Below, piece after piece: positions 30,325 through 53,795 of a DNA stretch of 64,000 bases. A program made the translations under genes and the position numbers. The stretch's first letter is position 1, and each line of letters opens with the position of its first letter. The DNA lies in NCBI GenBank assembly GCA_946495655.1, contig CAMMDS010000004.1, positions 1 to 64,000 on the forward strand, written 5' to 3'. Under the pieces are notes generated by a model. It was given only the letters and a program-made list of their open reading frames with translations, ran no database searches and was not told the origin of the DNA. The stretch is from an uncultured Clostridium sp. GTDB taxonomy: Bacteria; Bacillota; Clostridia; TANB77; CAG-508.

Positions 30325-30400
<76 letters not shown>

Positions 30401-30696: not shown

Positions 30697-31890
30697 TTAA
30701 GACCTTGTTGGTAATAGTAAGTTTTCTAGTGCATATCCAGCTTTTCTATTATGAGAAAGTAGTGGATGTACATAAAAGTCAAGTGTTGTACTTATTTGTG
30801 CATGACCTAGTCTTGCAGAAACAACAGCTATATCAACATTTTGTGCAACTAGTAAACTTGCATTTGTATGTCTTAATCCGTGAAAATTAATTACAGGTAA
30901 TCCTATTGTACCTACATATTTAACAAACCATTTGCTTATAGAAGAAGGATGCATAGGTTTGCCATCAGCTTGTACAAATAACCTATCAGAATTCGTCCAT
31001 AATTCGCCATATAGCGATTTTTGATCTTCATACCATAACTTATATTCCTCAAGCAAAGAAATGATAAATTCGGGTATTGCAATCTCTCTAATGGAGCTTT
31101 CTGTTTTAGGAACTTTTGTAAATACTCCCATATCTGATAGATACTGACTAGAACGGTTAATACTTATAATTCCATTTCTAAAATCAACATCTTGCCATTC
31201 TAATCCCATTAATTCACCTAAACGAACACCAGTAAAGATAGTAAGAATGATAGCAACTTTATATTTAGTATCTTCTACAGAAAGTTTTTCTAAATTTTCT
31301 AATAATATTTTAGTTTGCTCATCATCATAAGATCTTCTTTTAGGCTTTTTAGCTCTAGGTGGTTGAACACGTTCAGCAGGATTACTTACAATTAATTGCC
31401 AGTAAACAGCTCTATGAAGCATTGCTCTTAATAGTCTGTGATGTTCTAAAATGGTTTTACCAGATAAAGGCTTTTTAGTTTTTGTGCCATTGTTACCTTT
31501 TTTTCTAACTAATTGAGTATCTTTTTCAAGTAAGTCATAGAATTTCATAATGTCAGTTGGTCTGATTTTGTTTATATAAAAATGTCCAAAGTATGGTAGA
31601 ATTCTTGTTTCTAACATTCTACAATATCGTTTGTATGTAGTTGGAGCTAATTCTTTTGAACCATAATCTCTTTTCCATACATCAACAAATTCAGAAAATT
31701 TAAGAGATTTACCATCTATGACTAAACCATTTTGTACTTCAGTAACAAATTTTGCTAATTCAACTTCAGCTTCTTTTTTAGTTCCGTGAATAGTTTTTCT
31801 GTGTATCATTGGTTTTCCGTTTAAGTCAAATCCTTCTGATACTGTTAACCTGTAACTATTTTTTCCTCTTTTTTCTATACTCCCAGCCAT
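30697..31890 (-). CDS. int: Tyrosine recombinase (integrase) of the element
   Basis: A 397-residue phage-type integrase. The N-terminal residues 1-55 form an AP2-like arm-binding domain (GSIEKRGKNSYRLTVSEGFD); a SAM-like core-binding domain follows (about 60-165). The catalytic domain has Arg in FTGVRLGELMG (about 222), HGLRH (about 335-339), LGHA and the nucleophile Tyr in LDFYVHPL (about 371). It should act at the tRNA core site and at the ATTGGGTAAAA arm repeats. AAAGGAGGTG precedes the ATG. Its stop is about 320 bp from attL, the usual position for an integrase. Confidence 0.95.
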   Translation of the reverse strand: MAGSIEKRGKNSYRLTVSEGFDLNGKPMIHRKTIHGTKKEAEVELAKFVTEVQNGLVIDGKSLKFSEFVDVWKRDYGSKELAPTTYKRYCRMLETRILPYFGHFYINKIRPTDIMKFYDLLEKDTQLVRKKGNNGTKTKKPLSGKTILEHHRLLRAMLHRAVYWQLIVSNPAERVQPPRAKKPKRRSYDDEQTKILLENLEKLSVEDTKYKVAIILTIFTGVRLGELMGLEWQDVDFRNGIISINRSSQYLSDMGVFTKVPKTESSIREIAIPEFIISLLEEYKLWYEDQKSLYGELWTNSDRLFVQADGKPMHPSSISKWFVKYVGTIGLPVINFHGLRHTNASLLVAQNVDIAVVSARLGHAQISTTLDFYVHPLLSHNRKAGYALENLLLPTRS

Positions 31891-34772: not shown

Positions 34773-34791
34773 ATGTTACTATTTATTTTTT
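34755..34791. terminator. Bidirectional terminator overlapping two gene ends
   Basis: AAATAGTAGCAT pairs with ATGTTACTATTT, flanked by a T-run. The convergent stops (34772 and 34779) lie inside it. Confidence 0.75.
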
Positions 34792-36134: not shown

Positions 36135-36332
36135 ATGATAAATAACCAAATTCAAAGAACAACACTAACGATGAAAGAAGCATCAGAATATTTAGGTATT
36201 TCATATTGGTTAATTAATCAACTGGTAAGGAAAAAACAAATTCCGTATTGTAAAGTTGGTGGAAAATATTTATTTAGAGTACAAGCACTAGATGAATATT
36301 TAAGAAATATGGAATTACAATCTATGCTTTAA
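36135..36332 (+). CDS. Excisionase-like helix-turn-helix protein
   Basis: A 65-residue winged-helix protein of the excisionase/HTH_17 type: LTMKEASEYLGISYWLINQLVRKKQIPYCKVGGKYLFRVQALDEYL. The pattern (helix, E-A-x-x-Y-L-G-I-S, K-x-x-I-P, G-x-K-Y-L-F) is that of proteins that bend DNA to favour excision, or act as replication-gene regulators. AAGGAGG precedes the ATG. It opens the replication operon of the element. Confidence 0.8.
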   Translation: MINNQIQRTTLTMKEASEYLGISYWLINQLVRKKQIPYCKVGGKYLFRVQALDEYLRNMELQSML

Positions 36333-36360: not shown

Positions 36361-36885
36361 ATGTATAAGATACAATGGTTAAAAATTGATGTAAATTTAT
36401 TTGCAAATAGGAAAATTCAAATATTACTGAAAGAGCCTGATGGAGATACATATATTAGAGTATGGCTTCAATTATTAATTTTAGCTATGGAATGTAATAA
36501 AGAAGGAAAATTATTAATAAGTGATAATAAACCAATGACAATCGAATATTTTTCAAAGATTATGGGAAAGTCTTATGAAAAAATGAAGAAAATTATTGGT
36601 AAATTTTTAGAATTAGAAATGATTATTCTAGAAAACGAAGTATATAAAATAAAAAACTGGAATGAATATCAAAGTATTGAAACTTATGAAAAATACAAGG
36701 AACAAGCTAGATTAAGACAACAAAAATATCGTGAAAAAAAGAAAAGTGAAAATGAAAAAAATGACGTTACAGTAACGTTACGTAACGGAGAAGAAGAGAA
36801 TAAAGAAAAGAATAAAGAAAAGAAGAGAAAAGAAATAAGAAAGGAAGAAGAAAACACAAATGGATTTAGAAAATATGAAATGTAA
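36361..36885 (+). CDS. Phage replisome organizer (DnaD-like N-terminal domain)
   Basis: A 174-residue protein. Residues 1-105 match the phage replisome organizer N-terminal domain (WLKIDVNLFANRKIQILLKEPDGD; VWLQLLILAMECNKEGKL), a winged helix that binds origin DNA. The rest is a highly charged tail. Such proteins recruit the helicase loader, which is the next gene and overlaps by 26 bp. Together they indicate theta-type replication of the excised element. Its AGGAGG lies close to the ATG (about 3 bases). Confidence 0.82.
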   Translation: MYKIQWLKIDVNLFANRKIQILLKEPDGDTYIRVWLQLLILAMECNKEGKLLISDNKPMTIEYFSKIMGKSYEKMKKIIGKFLELEMIILENEVYKIKNWNEYQSIETYEKYKEQARLRQQKYREKKKSENEKNDVTVTLRNGEEENKEKNKEKKRKEIRKEEENTNGFRKYEM

Positions 36886-37696
36886 TTCTAAAGACAAGAT
36901 TTTCCACAATAAATGCAAATTCTGTGGAAAAAATTTAAAGCCAATAGGTCTAGATTATTTATATGCAAATATTCCATTAAGTTCAATAAAGTATGAAAGA
37001 TGCGATTGTAAACAATCAAAAGCTTATTGGAATGAAATAGATTTAAAAGAAGAAATACAAAAGAAAAGAAAACGTTTTGAACAAATGATTAGGCAATTTT
37101 ATATAAAAAATTATAGTAGTAAACAAATAAAAGATTATCAATTTAAAAACTTTATAATAACAGAAATTAATAAGAAAGAAATAGAAATTGCAAAAGATTT
37201 TACAGAAAAATGTATAAATAAAAATCAAAAAAATGGACTTATTATTACTGGAAAATCTGGAGTTGGAAAAACACATTTAGCAACAGCTATTTTAAATAAA
37301 CTAACTGAAAAAGATATGCTAGTTTTAATGGGAAGACTAATTTTATTGCTGGATGTAATTAAAGATACTTTTAAAGATTTTTCAAGTAAAGAAAAAGACA
37401 TAATAGAATTATATTCTAAAGTTGATATGCTTATAATTGATGATTTAGGAACAGAAAGAATTAGTAACTGGGCGTTAGAAAAACTATATACAATTATAGA
37501 AAATAGAAATGAAAATAAATTGCCAATTATAGTAACAACTAGATTTAATAAAGAGAGTTTATTAGATAGATTTTATCAAAGTGAAGATGAAGAATTAGCA
37601 GAAGCTGTTATTGAAAAATTATATCAATTTTGCTATGGAATTGAACTAAAAAAATATGATGAATATGAAAAAGAAAAAGTTAGTATAAGCGACTAA
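36860..37696 (+). CDS. DnaC/DnaI-like helicase loader ATPase
   Basis: A 278-residue AAA+ ATPase. An N-terminal Cys cluster (CKFCGKNL ... CDCKQ) resembles the zinc-binding region of DnaI-type loaders. Walker A is ITGKSGVGKTHLA, Walker B LLIIDDLGTER, and the sensor region VTTRFNKESLLDRF follows. It would load the host replicative helicase at the element's origin under the direction of the preceding organizer. A structured, gene-free segment follows and may be that origin. Confidence 0.85.
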   Translation: MDLENMKCNSKDKIFHNKCKFCGKNLKPIGLDYLYANIPLSSIKYERCDCKQSKAYWNEIDLKEEIQKKRKRFEQMIRQFYIKNYSSKQIKDYQFKNFIITEINKKEIEIAKDFTEKCINKNQKNGLIITGKSGVGKTHLATAILNKLTEKDMLVLMGRLILLLDVIKDTFKDFSSKEKDIIELYSKVDMLIIDDLGTERISNWALEKLYTIIENRNENKLPIIVTTRFNKESLLDRFYQSEDEELAEAVIEKLYQFCYGIELKKYDEYEKEKVSISD

Positions 37697-37760
37697 ACAA
37701 AATACTAACTTAATCCAAAAACTAATATAATTATAAAATATTTATACATAAAAGTAAAGC

Positions 37761-37800
37761 AAAAAAGTTCAAGTTTTTGGTTTAAAATTTGAACTTTTTT
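37761..37800 (+). terminator. Terminator of the replication operon
   Basis: AAAAAAGTTCAA pairs with TTTGAACTTTTTT around a 15-nt loop. Confidence 0.75.
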
Positions 37801-37849
37801 GAAAATATTTAAAATAAAAATAATAGATTTTTTATAAAAAATTATCACT

Positions 37850-38010
37850 CGGAGAGCCAAAAGGGTATTAGGGCATTTTGCCCTAAACAGCAAAAAGGGT
37901 GTCAATACACCTAGCTGGCGAATATTAGGTACTAAAAAATACTACCCAATATTCGTGCAAAATAAATTTTGCTAATTATTAATGCTTCGTAAGCTAGCAT
38001 TAATAAATTT
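37850..38010. other. Multi-hairpin segment, possible replication origin or RNA
   Basis: Four stems in about 140 bp: TTAGGGCA/TGCCCTAA (37868-37886), GGTGT/ACACC (37898-37911), GCGAATATT with AATATTCGTGC (37919-37958) and TTATTAATGCT/AGCATTAATAA (37976-38006). It sits between the helicase-loader gene and the next gene, and is less AT-rich than its surroundings. Confidence 0.5.
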
Positions 38011-38032
38011 TTATAGTAAGGAAGTGATGAAA

Positions 38033-38656
38033 ATGTGGAGAGATTCAGAGCAAGCTTTAGATAATATTTTTTTATCATATGATAAAATTTTAAAAAGATT
38101 ACAATTATTAGGAATAACAACTAAACATGGTAAAGAAGTAAAGCATGTAGATTTAAGAAAAGCTGTAGATGTTATGTTGGAAAAACATCCAACTTGCAGA
38201 TGGAGAAGTGAAAAAATAAGAAGTAGAAAATATTTAATTCTAATAGAGGGATATGAATGGATAAAACGAGTGTATTTTGAAAAAGAAAAATCTTTAATAG
38301 ATGCTGATATAAATTTTTTTGAAACCAGAATTAAATTGTACGAAGATCTTTTGAAAGTAGAACATAATGAAAATTGGTGGAATGAAGATATGGATATAAA
38401 ACAATTAGAAAAATATTTTAATAGAGCAAAATCTAGTATAAGAAAAGCAATTAAGAAGATGTGCGATAATGGCTTTAGTAGTTATAAATATTTAAATAAT
38501 AATAAAGTTGTTATTTCAAGTAGAGGAGTTGAATGGATTTGTAAAAATGTGTTTAAGCAAAAGTATTTAGAGTTATTGGAAAAATATAAAATGGAGTTAA
38601 CAGAGATATATATTGAAAAAGGATATATTTATGATGAATTTTTTGGAAAAAATTAA
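38033..38656 (+). CDS. Unknown element protein
   Basis: A 207-residue basic protein (MWRDSEQALDNIFLSYDKIL...). I recognise no family. It is mostly helical, with an HTH-like middle (IKQLEKYFNRAKSSIRKAIKKM) followed by SSYKYLNNNKVVISSRGVEWI, which looks like a winged helix. DNA binding is therefore likely. I start at the ATG at 38033, 8 bases after AAGGAAG; ATGs at 38027 or 37982 would lengthen it. Its place after the replication genes and the hairpin region suggests a role in replication or its control. Confidence 0.6.
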   Translation: MWRDSEQALDNIFLSYDKILKRLQLLGITTKHGKEVKHVDLRKAVDVMLEKHPTCRWRSEKIRSRKYLILIEGYEWIKRVYFEKEKSLIDADINFFETRIKLYEDLLKVEHNENWWNEDMDIKQLEKYFNRAKSSIRKAIKKMCDNGFSSYKYLNNNKVVISSRGVEWICKNVFKQKYLELLEKYKMELTEIYIEKGYIYDEFFGKN

Positions 38657-51614: not shown

Positions 51615-51632
51615 GCTCATAACCCGAAGGTC
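51615..51632 (+). other. attR core with decayed tRNA 3' end
   Basis: Exact copy of GCTCATAACCCGAAGGTC. The following bases (ATAAATCTGTTTCTTCCCCC) resemble the tRNA 3' part GTAAGTTCGAGTCTTACCCC with several changes, as expected of a displaced tRNA end that no longer has to function. Confidence 0.82.
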
Positions 51633-51781
51633 ATAAATCTGTTTCTTCCCCCCTACTTTCCTATTTTCAAAAAATATTTGAACATAGCAAATAATTGCTT
51701 TTGTAATCAATAGCATATTTCTATAAATTATCTTATCTTTATTTATTAATCCCCTACATATTACAAAATAATATATAACTA
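51633..51781. other. Host flank right of attR, no gene
   Basis: AT-rich, no coding sequence. It holds the decayed tRNA end at its left and leads to the restriction-modification promoter. Confidence 0.4.
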
Positions 51782-51871: not shown

Positions 51872-52672
51872 ATGAATGCATGGACAAAAATCAGTGCAGA
51901 ATTGGCACAACAAAAAAATTATTTAGATGAACTATATAAAGTATATCCAATAACACAAAATCCAAAGAGAGAACTTTCTAAAGAAAATGAAAAAGATATA
52001 AGAGAAGCTTTTGATAATAAAGATGATGAAAAATTGATTGTAAGCCTACTAAAACTTAAATTGTTTCCAATAAAAGATTCTTTTGTTGCATACTTAAAAA
52101 AGGATAAAGAAGCGATAAGTCGTAATCCTCAAACAGTTAACAGAATCGCTGAAATTCTATATCAAATGGGTATAGATGAGATAATGGAAAAATGTACTGC
52201 ACCAAAAGAAACAAACAGACAAATAGGTCCTATGTTTAAAAAATGGATTGATAAAGGAACATTAGGTGCACCAGTTATAAAAAATAGTGAAGAATTTTTA
52301 AATTATGATGGGAATTGTATCTTTAATTCTTCAGATATTGAAATGGAAAAATTTGCAGCAAAATACTTAGGATTTACTAGAGAAAAAGGAATTGATTTTA
52401 TTGCAAAATTTAATAATAAATATGTAATTGCAGAAGCAAAATTCTTAACAGATTTTGGTGGACATCAAAATGCACAATTTAATGATGCCGTTAGCACTAT
52501 GCAAAACTCATTTGAAGGTAAGAAAGTAGCTAATGAGATTATACCAATAGCAATTATGGATGGTGTATTATATATTCAAGGGAAGAAAAAAATGTATAGA
52601 TATTTGCAGAATCATCCAGACCAAATTATATTATCTGCTTTAGTATTAAGAGAATTTTTGTATTCTATATAG
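51872..52672 (+). CDS. Type II restriction endonuclease, PD-(D/E)xK type
   Basis: A 266-residue protein. The catalytic core is visible as GIDFIAKFNNKYVIAEAKFL: D in GIDF and E-x-K in AEAKF fit PD-(D/E)xK. IGPMFKKWIDKGTLG and GGHQNAQFNDAV are blocks I associate with small type II enzymes, but I cannot name the recognition site. It cleaves unmodified DNA. GGAGGAG precedes the ATG. The methyltransferase gene follows by 16 bp; endonuclease-first order with a shared promoter is notable because the enzyme would be made before protection unless regulated. Confidence 0.75.
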   Translation: MNAWTKISAELAQQKNYLDELYKVYPITQNPKRELSKENEKDIREAFDNKDDEKLIVSLLKLKLFPIKDSFVAYLKKDKEAISRNPQTVNRIAEILYQMGIDEIMEKCTAPKETNRQIGPMFKKWIDKGTLGAPVIKNSEEFLNYDGNCIFNSSDIEMEKFAAKYLGFTREKGIDFIAKFNNKYVIAEAKFLTDFGGHQNAQFNDAVSTMQNSFEGKKVANEIIPIAIMDGVLYIQGKKKMYRYLQNHPDQIILSALVLREFLYSI

Positions 52673-52688
52673 TGAAAGAGAGAAAGAA

Positions 52689-53795
52689 ATGGAATTATAT
52701 TATAAAAACAAAAAAAGCCAAACCCAAATATTAAAAAATGCAGCTAAAGTAAAATATAATATTAATTTGGATAATAATTCATTATTATTTAAAGGAGATA
52801 ATTTCTCTGCTCTATCATTTCTATTAAAAGACTACAAAAACAAAATCGATCTAGTATATATAGATCCACCATTTAATACACTAAACGATTTTTATGTTTC
52901 TGATACGAGAGCAAATTCAATTAGTTCAAATAAAAATTCTACATTGGCATATTCAGATAAAATGAGTAAAGAAGAATATTTAGAATTTTTAAGAGAACGT
53001 TTAGTGTTAATCAGAGAATTATTATCTGAGAAAGGTTCTTTGTATTTGCATATAGATTATAAAATAGGACATTATGTAAAAATTATTACGGATGAAATTT
53101 TCGGAGAAGAAAATTTTAAAAATGATATTACACGAATAAAATCTAATCCTAAAAATTTTTATAGAAAAGCATATGGTAATGAAAAAGATTTGATATTATT
53201 TTATTCTAAAAACAGCAAAACCAATATATGGAATGATTTAAGAATACCTTTAGAAGATGATGAAATAAATGAAAAATTTAAAAAAGTAGATGAAAACGGT
53301 AGAAGATATACAACAATTCCTTTACATGCTCCAGGAGAAACAAAGAACGGAATTACAGGACAACCTTGGAGAAATATTCCTGTACCCAAAGGTAGGCATT
53401 GGAGAACTGATCCAACAGAATTTGATAAGCTAGACTCTCAAGGAGATATAGAATGGTCATCAACTGGAAACCCTAGAATAAAAAAATATGCAGATCAGCA
53501 TGAAGGAAAAAGAATACAAGATATTTGGAAATTCAAAGATCCACAAAATCCAATATATCCTACACAGAAAAATATTGAAATGTTAAAAAGAATAATCTTG
53601 CAATCATCAAATGAAAATAGTATTATTCTTGATTGTTTTGCAGGTAGTGGAACTACACTTGAATGTGCTAATAAATTAGGAAGAAATTGGATAGGAGTAG
53701 ATAATTCTGATGTTGCTATAGATAAAATACAAAGTAGAAAAATTGGAGAATACCAATTTATTGATATTACAAATTATAATAATAAAAAAAAGTAA
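52689..53795 (+). CDS. Type II DNA methyltransferase, beta class
   Basis: A 368-residue DNA methyltransferase. The catalytic motif IV comes first (VYIDPPFNT, about residues 57-65) and the SAM-binding motif I last (DCFAGSGTTLECA, about 322-334), an order that defines the beta class. DPPF is found in both N6-adenine and N4-cytosine enzymes; adenine is more usual for DPPFNT. It protects host DNA against the adjacent endonuclease. AGAGAAAG precedes the ATG. Not part of the element, because it lies beyond attR. Confidence 0.9.
   Translation: MELYYKNKKSQTQILKNAAKVKYNINLDNNSLLFKGDNFSALSFLLKDYKNKIDLVYIDPPFNTLNDFYVSDTRANSISSNKNSTLAYSDKMSKEEYLEFLRERLVLIRELLSEKGSLYLHIDYKIGHYVKIITDEIFGEENFKNDITRIKSNPKNFYRKAYGNEKDLILFYSKNSKTNIWNDLRIPLEDDEINEKFKKVDENGRRYTTIPLHAPGETKNGITGQPWRNIPVPKGRHWRTDPTEFDKLDSQGDIEWSSTGNPRIKKYADQHEGKRIQDIWKFKDPQNPIYPTQKNIEMLKRIILQSSNENSIILDCFAGSGTTLECANKLGRNWIGVDNSDVAIDKIQSRKIGEYQFIDITNYNNKKK

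Follow-up and report, generated by a model that had tools for sequence, protein, structure and literature searches.

A conserved multi-hairpin segment on a relaxase-less clostridial island is probably an origin of transfer shared with a family of integrative conjugative elements

Phage-inducible chromosomal islands combine a frame of integrase, excisionase and replication genes with accessory cargo, and the islands mobilized by SXT and IncC elements are examples of iOriT integrative mobilizable elements or oriT-mimic genomic islands. In this known class, an island with an integrase and no relaxase has an oriT-like segment in common with its conjugative helper (PMC11389934). An oriT is a short sequence that is difficult to spot, and relaxase-less islands are therefore usually classed as immobile. 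In Streptococcus, the relaxase-bearing IME_oriTs integrate at a precise point of the oriT of an ICE, in a conserved stem-loop where the nic site probably lies (PMC7563843). Here we describe a clostridial island in a window of 64,000 nt, to which all coordinates refer, that carries a hairpin segment of about 160 bases (37848-38006) and most likely joins the iOriT hitchers. It has the integrase, the excisionase and the att repeats of that class with no relaxase seen, and its segment is common to an ICE family as the oriT of a hitcher resembles that of its helper. It differs from the class as described in its clostridial hosts from an uncultured order, its own phage-type replication genes and its putative MOBP ICE helper.

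The source genome (1.55 Mb, 51 contigs) contains the island as a 21.3-kb insertion at tRNA-Met (30355-51632), bounded by an 18-bp att repeat in the anticodon region and with the integrase at its left end (Table 1); related contigs are labelled uncultured Clostridia in the database. What we read as a degenerate tRNA 3' half occupies 51633-51665, to the right of the attR core, which suggests that the original tRNA end decayed after the island integrated. The gene content runs from a TrlF-like gene and a DUF6076 protein (at 34779) through Xis, the replisome organizer, DnaC, the segment and an HTH protein termed c2 to candidate defence genes, and those of the island as a whole include TrlF-like, PLD/Snf2, type IIG-like restriction-methylation, Fic-type and PDC-M11A. 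The xis-repO-dnaC operon likely terminates at an inverted repeat followed up by its T tract, which our terminator scan did not report because its rule demands three G-C pairs. Across sister islands the frame xis-repO-dnaC-segment-c2 is constant and the genes beyond c2 are swapped. Neither a relaxase nor a phage structural or packaging gene was seen in the island, and the one relaxase match in the genome lies on another contig (C9), outside the window.

Table 1. Positions of the island features and of hairpins P1-P6 in the window.
Feature	Position	Strand	Basis or remark
attL core GCTCATAACCCGAAGGTC in tRNA-Met	30355..30372	+	18-bp repeat
Tyrosine integrase of island	30697..31890	-	profile match
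Excisionase-like protein (Xis)	36135..36332	+	profile match
Phage-type replisome organizer, RepO (Phage_rep_org_N)	36361..36885	+	profile match
Palindromic repeats GACGTTACAGTAACGTTACGTAACGG in replisome organizer gene	36763..36788	+	better candidate replication origin
DnaC-like helicase loader	36860..37696	+	profile match
Inverted repeat with T tract, likely terminator of xis-repO-dnaC operon	37760..37801	+	self match, opposite strand
P1 mini-hairpin CTC-GGA-GAG (variant CCC-AGC-GGG)	37848..37856	+	fold; T-A to C-G double change in 32/84 rows
P2 hairpin TTAGGGC-ATTTT-GCCCTAA	37868..37886	+	fold; two inner pairs covary (GC/AT, GC/CG)
P3 hairpin, outer CAGC/GCTG, inner GGTGT-CAAT-ACACC	37888..37917	+	fold, covariation
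CT dinucleotide, serine-recombinase IME crossover site in relatives (..AG-CT/GGCGAA)	37915..37916	+	candidate nic neighbourhood
P4 hairpin CGAATATT/AATATTCG, inner GGTA/TACC, A-rich loop	37919..37955	+	fold, covariation
P5 hairpin GCAAAATAAATTTTGC	37957..37972	+	fold; one group of copies without P5
P6 hairpin, TTCG..CTAG loop motif	37976..38006	+	stem variable; one group of copies without P6
HTH protein c2, candidate relaxosome accessory or regulator	38027..38656	+	precedes mobC-relaxase in ICEs
attR core, identical 18 bp, then degenerate tRNA 3' half	51615..51632	+	18-bp repeat

The first-pass annotation had reported four stems in a G+C-enriched stretch between the DnaC-like gene and an HTH-like protein. 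The stems are present, six of them nameable rather than four, the flanking protein is indeed HTH-like and without a known family, and G+C is 0.35 across 37850-38010 and 0.41 in the P1-P4 core, compared with 0.15 immediately upstream and 0.23-0.24 in the adjoining genes. Folded as single-stranded DNA, 37840-38010 reaches -32.7 kcal/mol against a shuffle mean of -14.4 (z -5.9, with 0 of 200 shuffles as good), and RNA folding gives z scores of -4.9 for the + strand and -6.3 for the - strand. The segment has the top fold stability within its mobile element, and when the whole window was scanned in 2,554 intervals of 171 nt, the only region to fold as well was that of tRNA-Met.

A DNA search at E 0.01 gave matches in 89 of the 290 genomes of the order, the weakest of them due to chance, and a covariance model placed the segment in 68 of the 290. 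RNAalifold on the raw MAFFT alignment recovered merely four pairs because the length-varying hairpins misalign in MAFFT, and it was replaced by a hand-set structure with covariance-model realignment. In the resulting test set (alignment A2, 84 distinct rows that are related to one another), 90.0% of cells are paired, compared with 33.6-51.9% in slid structures, and 212 cells carry double-sided changes, compared with 63.5 in shuffles; these changes fall at 20 of the 30 pairs. The comparative alignment that the first-pass annotation had suggested as a check therefore does reveal compensatory changes, such as GGTGT/ACACC to GGTCC/GGACC and CAGC/GCTG to AAGC/GCTT. The inner stem of P3 also occurs in relatives as GGTGC/GCACC and AGTGT/ACACT, and in P4 double changes are seen at every one of the seven outer pairs in the model. 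Judged from its sequence, the segment is conserved, covarying multi-hairpin DNA on a relaxase-less integrated island. In P1-P3, G.T cells (49) are more frequent than A.C cells (15), as would be the case if it is the single-stranded + strand that folds, which is suggestive only, the kinship of the rows weakening the point. Beyond the order, 391 genomes of the class yielded two weak partial matches (L163 and L164), both in one genome (G459). These are chromosomal intergenic repeats of the form GCCGCCTNAGCGGCAAAAAGG..TTTAGGGC..GCCCTAAA, one of which adjoins pyrH; what they have in common with the segment is limited to P1+P2-like hairpins, and they were set aside as relatives.

The covariation and the G.T bias are equally compatible with a structured RNA made from the + strand, either a small RNA or a leader of the HTH gene, with transfer, copy number or the expression of defence genes under its control. 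Such an RNA has a precedent in SGI1, a conjugation island that is reported to need its own small RNA (PMC9299015). We consider this reading unlikely. A scan for sigma-70-like promoters upstream of the segment on the + strand found none, the upstream operon closes with its inverted repeat and T tract, and of the Rfam covariance models run against the window only the tRNA matched, leaving the segment without a family. In many copies, moreover, the next downstream gene either has no relation to c2 or begins only after hundreds of bases, so that a leader role would not be general, and an RNA leaves unexplained the precise IME insertions described below. It should be noted that a segment this elaborate could also have an RNA function, and that one segment could be both RNA and oriT.

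Gene contexts were compared for 79 fetched copies. RepO/DnaC lie directly upstream in 22 and c2 lies within 300 bases downstream in 34, while the other upstream neighbours include ICE proteins, HTH_36 or other replication-like proteins, Abi_2 and what we read as HEPN/MNT pairs. In 69 copies there is no MOBP-type relaxase nearby and the hosts are other mobile elements, whose replication genes, integrases and cargo are unrelated; the recurrence of the segment among such unrelated modules implies a shared trans-acting factor. The segment mostly retains 84-92% nucleotide identity where RepO/DnaC are at 39-67% protein identity.

We propose that this factor is the relaxase of an ICE family and that the segment is an oriT common to these ICEs and to relaxase-less islands, which we consider probable. 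Two protein clusters of the ICE contigs, c5 and c6, are a NikA-like MobC and a MobA/VirD2-type relaxase, for which the nearest models are TraI/MobA(P), with scores below the curated cut-offs. Thirteen relaxases of this type (at least 67% identity) were found in the 290 genomes, and on the same strand, no more than 5 kb upstream, the segment is present in all 12 that could be assessed (11 intact, one split in G158:C29), the thirteenth (G187:C33) being 206 bases from a contig end. Downstream of the segment the ICE contigs have the order c2-mobC-relaxase-Dcm, and about 6-20 kb upstream of it TrsL/VirB6-like, PrgI, VirB4-like and NlpC/P60 genes stand in constant order in five genomes (G150, G219, G248, G131 and G206); in G223 and G072 VirB4-NlpC/P60 is at the contig edge, and some T4SS-type genes of these contigs are frameshifted in the assemblies. 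By eye and among those listed, no other relaxase of these genomes exceeds 38% identity, and just two (G211:C2 and G117:C1) are near a segment, at about 8-11 kb. An oriT is expected to adjoin the relaxase and MobC genes of a conjugative element and to carry conserved inverted repeats foldable on one strand, and both were found here. No match of the segment to a known oriT was obtained. The closest arrangement is that of Tn1549-type transposons (E. faecium NZ_LR135359), which also have mobC and then a MOBP relaxase with a structured intergenic region upstream; their relaxases are only about 27% identical to that of the ICE family and their upstream regions are unlike the segment by eye. As for a nic consensus, the nearly invariant GCTGGCGAA of the segment may recall the ColE1-type CTGG, and the Tn1549 region is by eye no match. 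In the source genome no relaxase of the right type was found, and the same-genus genome G187 has one. Extra segments occur in 5 of 13 ICE-bearing genomes compared with 56 of 277 others by hand count, a difference that is not clear.

A replication origin of the excised element had been the first suggestion for this region, and of that reading the structure and the importance to an excisable element are well supported, by the covariation and by the retention of the segment in many mobile elements, while an origin driven by RepO/DnaC is disfavoured, the segment also occurring without these genes. The segment adjoins RepO/DnaC in the copies counted above, some of its other upstream genes are replication-like too, and it might alternatively serve as a lagging-strand single-strand origin, which is likewise multi-hairpin and usable by any element. 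We nevertheless regard either kind of origin as quite unlikely. Rather than always accompanying an initiator, the segment is found without RepO/DnaC in the ICEs and in L059 (int-xis-segment-c2), or beside unrelated replication genes. The iteron-like repeats of the GTAACGTTAC type are located within the organizer gene and not in the segment, most close relatives retaining them in part, and the palindromic repeats of that gene (Table 1) are the likely replication origin. Known single-strand origins carry a TAGCGT motif, and none is present in the segment sequence. A replication origin would also leave the association with the relaxase unexplained.

The int-xis-replication-HTH order of the island resembles in our reading that of phage-inducible islands, and two of its replication proteins are phage-type, as might be expected if a satellite were packaged from the segment (cos/pac) and the HTH protein acted as its small terminase. 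To this we give almost no weight. In elements with T4SS genes, both the segment and the HTH protein stand ahead of relaxases, which links the segment to conjugation genes; DNA matches in plasmids and phages did not exceed chance, viral contigs contained no related loci, and neither structural nor packaging genes of a phage were seen in the island.

A second mobile element bears on where the proposed oriT would be nicked. Five of seven copies of a serine-recombinase IME lie in the segment at one CT dinucleotide, one of them within the ICE's own copy, and two lie outside it (G084 and G205:C39). In G158:C29 and G245:C35 the element of 7.6-8.4 kb splits the segment and both halves were recovered, with left junctions ..ATG-CT/CTTAG or ..AAG-CT/CTTGAC and right junctions ..AAT-CT/GGCGAA or ..AAG-CT/GGCGAA; a matching left junction is present in G205:C23, G153:C5 and L026. 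A single dinucleotide with both halves recoverable is what an attB of this IME should show. In the G158 copy, the serine recombinase is accompanied by a Mob_Pre relaxase. The IME inserted in the segments of an ICE (L143:5265-12840) and of another element (L085:2680-11010) has, next to the serine recombinase, a DUF6076 protein, a domain also present in the island, and in L143 a Mob_Pre relaxase and a HEPN/MNT-like pair in addition.

This precise insertion resembles that of the Streptococcus IME_oriTs, with the difference that the Streptococcus elements have a Rep_trans relaxase and target MobT oriTs (PMC7563843), and that the present IME, with its serine recombinase and Mob_Pre relaxase, goes into the segment of MOBP ICEs. 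The parallel supports, without proving, an oriT with its nic site near the CT dinucleotide. A breakpoint scan for recombination at this presumed nic site was uninformative, the left half of the segment being more conserved. The fixed CT and the swapping of flanking modules among copies could instead mean that the segment is itself a recombination site, for serine-recombinase attachment or cassette exchange, which we hold to be very improbable: the serine IME occupies merely about five copies, the window island integrates by a tyrosine integrase at the tRNA-Met att site, and being the attB of a parasite offers no explanation for the conservation of the segment in its hosts.

Under the shared-oriT reading we propose the following mechanism. 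Int/Xis would excise the 21-kb island, and RepO/DnaC would replicate the excised form. If an ICE of the family described above resides in the same cell, its MOBP-type relaxase and MobC would then bind the + strand hairpins and nick that strand near AGCT/GGCGAA, within the AGCTGGCGAA neighbourhood. The secretion system of the ICE would carry the island to a new cell, and the island's own c2 possibly aids assembly of the complex. We regard c2 as a candidate relaxosome accessory or transfer regulator because it is retained with the segment in islands and stands upstream of mobC in the ICEs. Its AlphaFold model is confident and mostly helical (pLDDT 87.8); profile searches gave no family match, and Foldseek returned no global match, only weak local ones of winged-helix, MarR and Xis-like type.

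A broader view, possible and on balance doubtful, is that the segment together with c2 is a minimal "ticket" module of a new sort, in which a dedicated adaptor joins a multi-hairpin oriT (which may double as an RNA or single-strand origin), acquired by unrelated defence islands for transport by one ICE family and parasitized by a second IME as an integration site. The precise IME insertions amount to a second layer of parasitism at the segment. With the covariance-model oriT, mostly located away from its relaxase, islands could be assigned to conjugative carriers, and the anti-phage defence genes of the riders make this a testable route for the spread of defence islands. A further island type (L048, L056, L075, L080 and similar) has Abi_2 or HEPN/MNT, the segment, a serine recombinase and a peroxiredoxin-like gene, which suggests a second integration module using the same hairpin segment. 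Directly beyond the right att repeat of the window island lies a type II restriction enzyme and methyltransferase pair (51872-53795).
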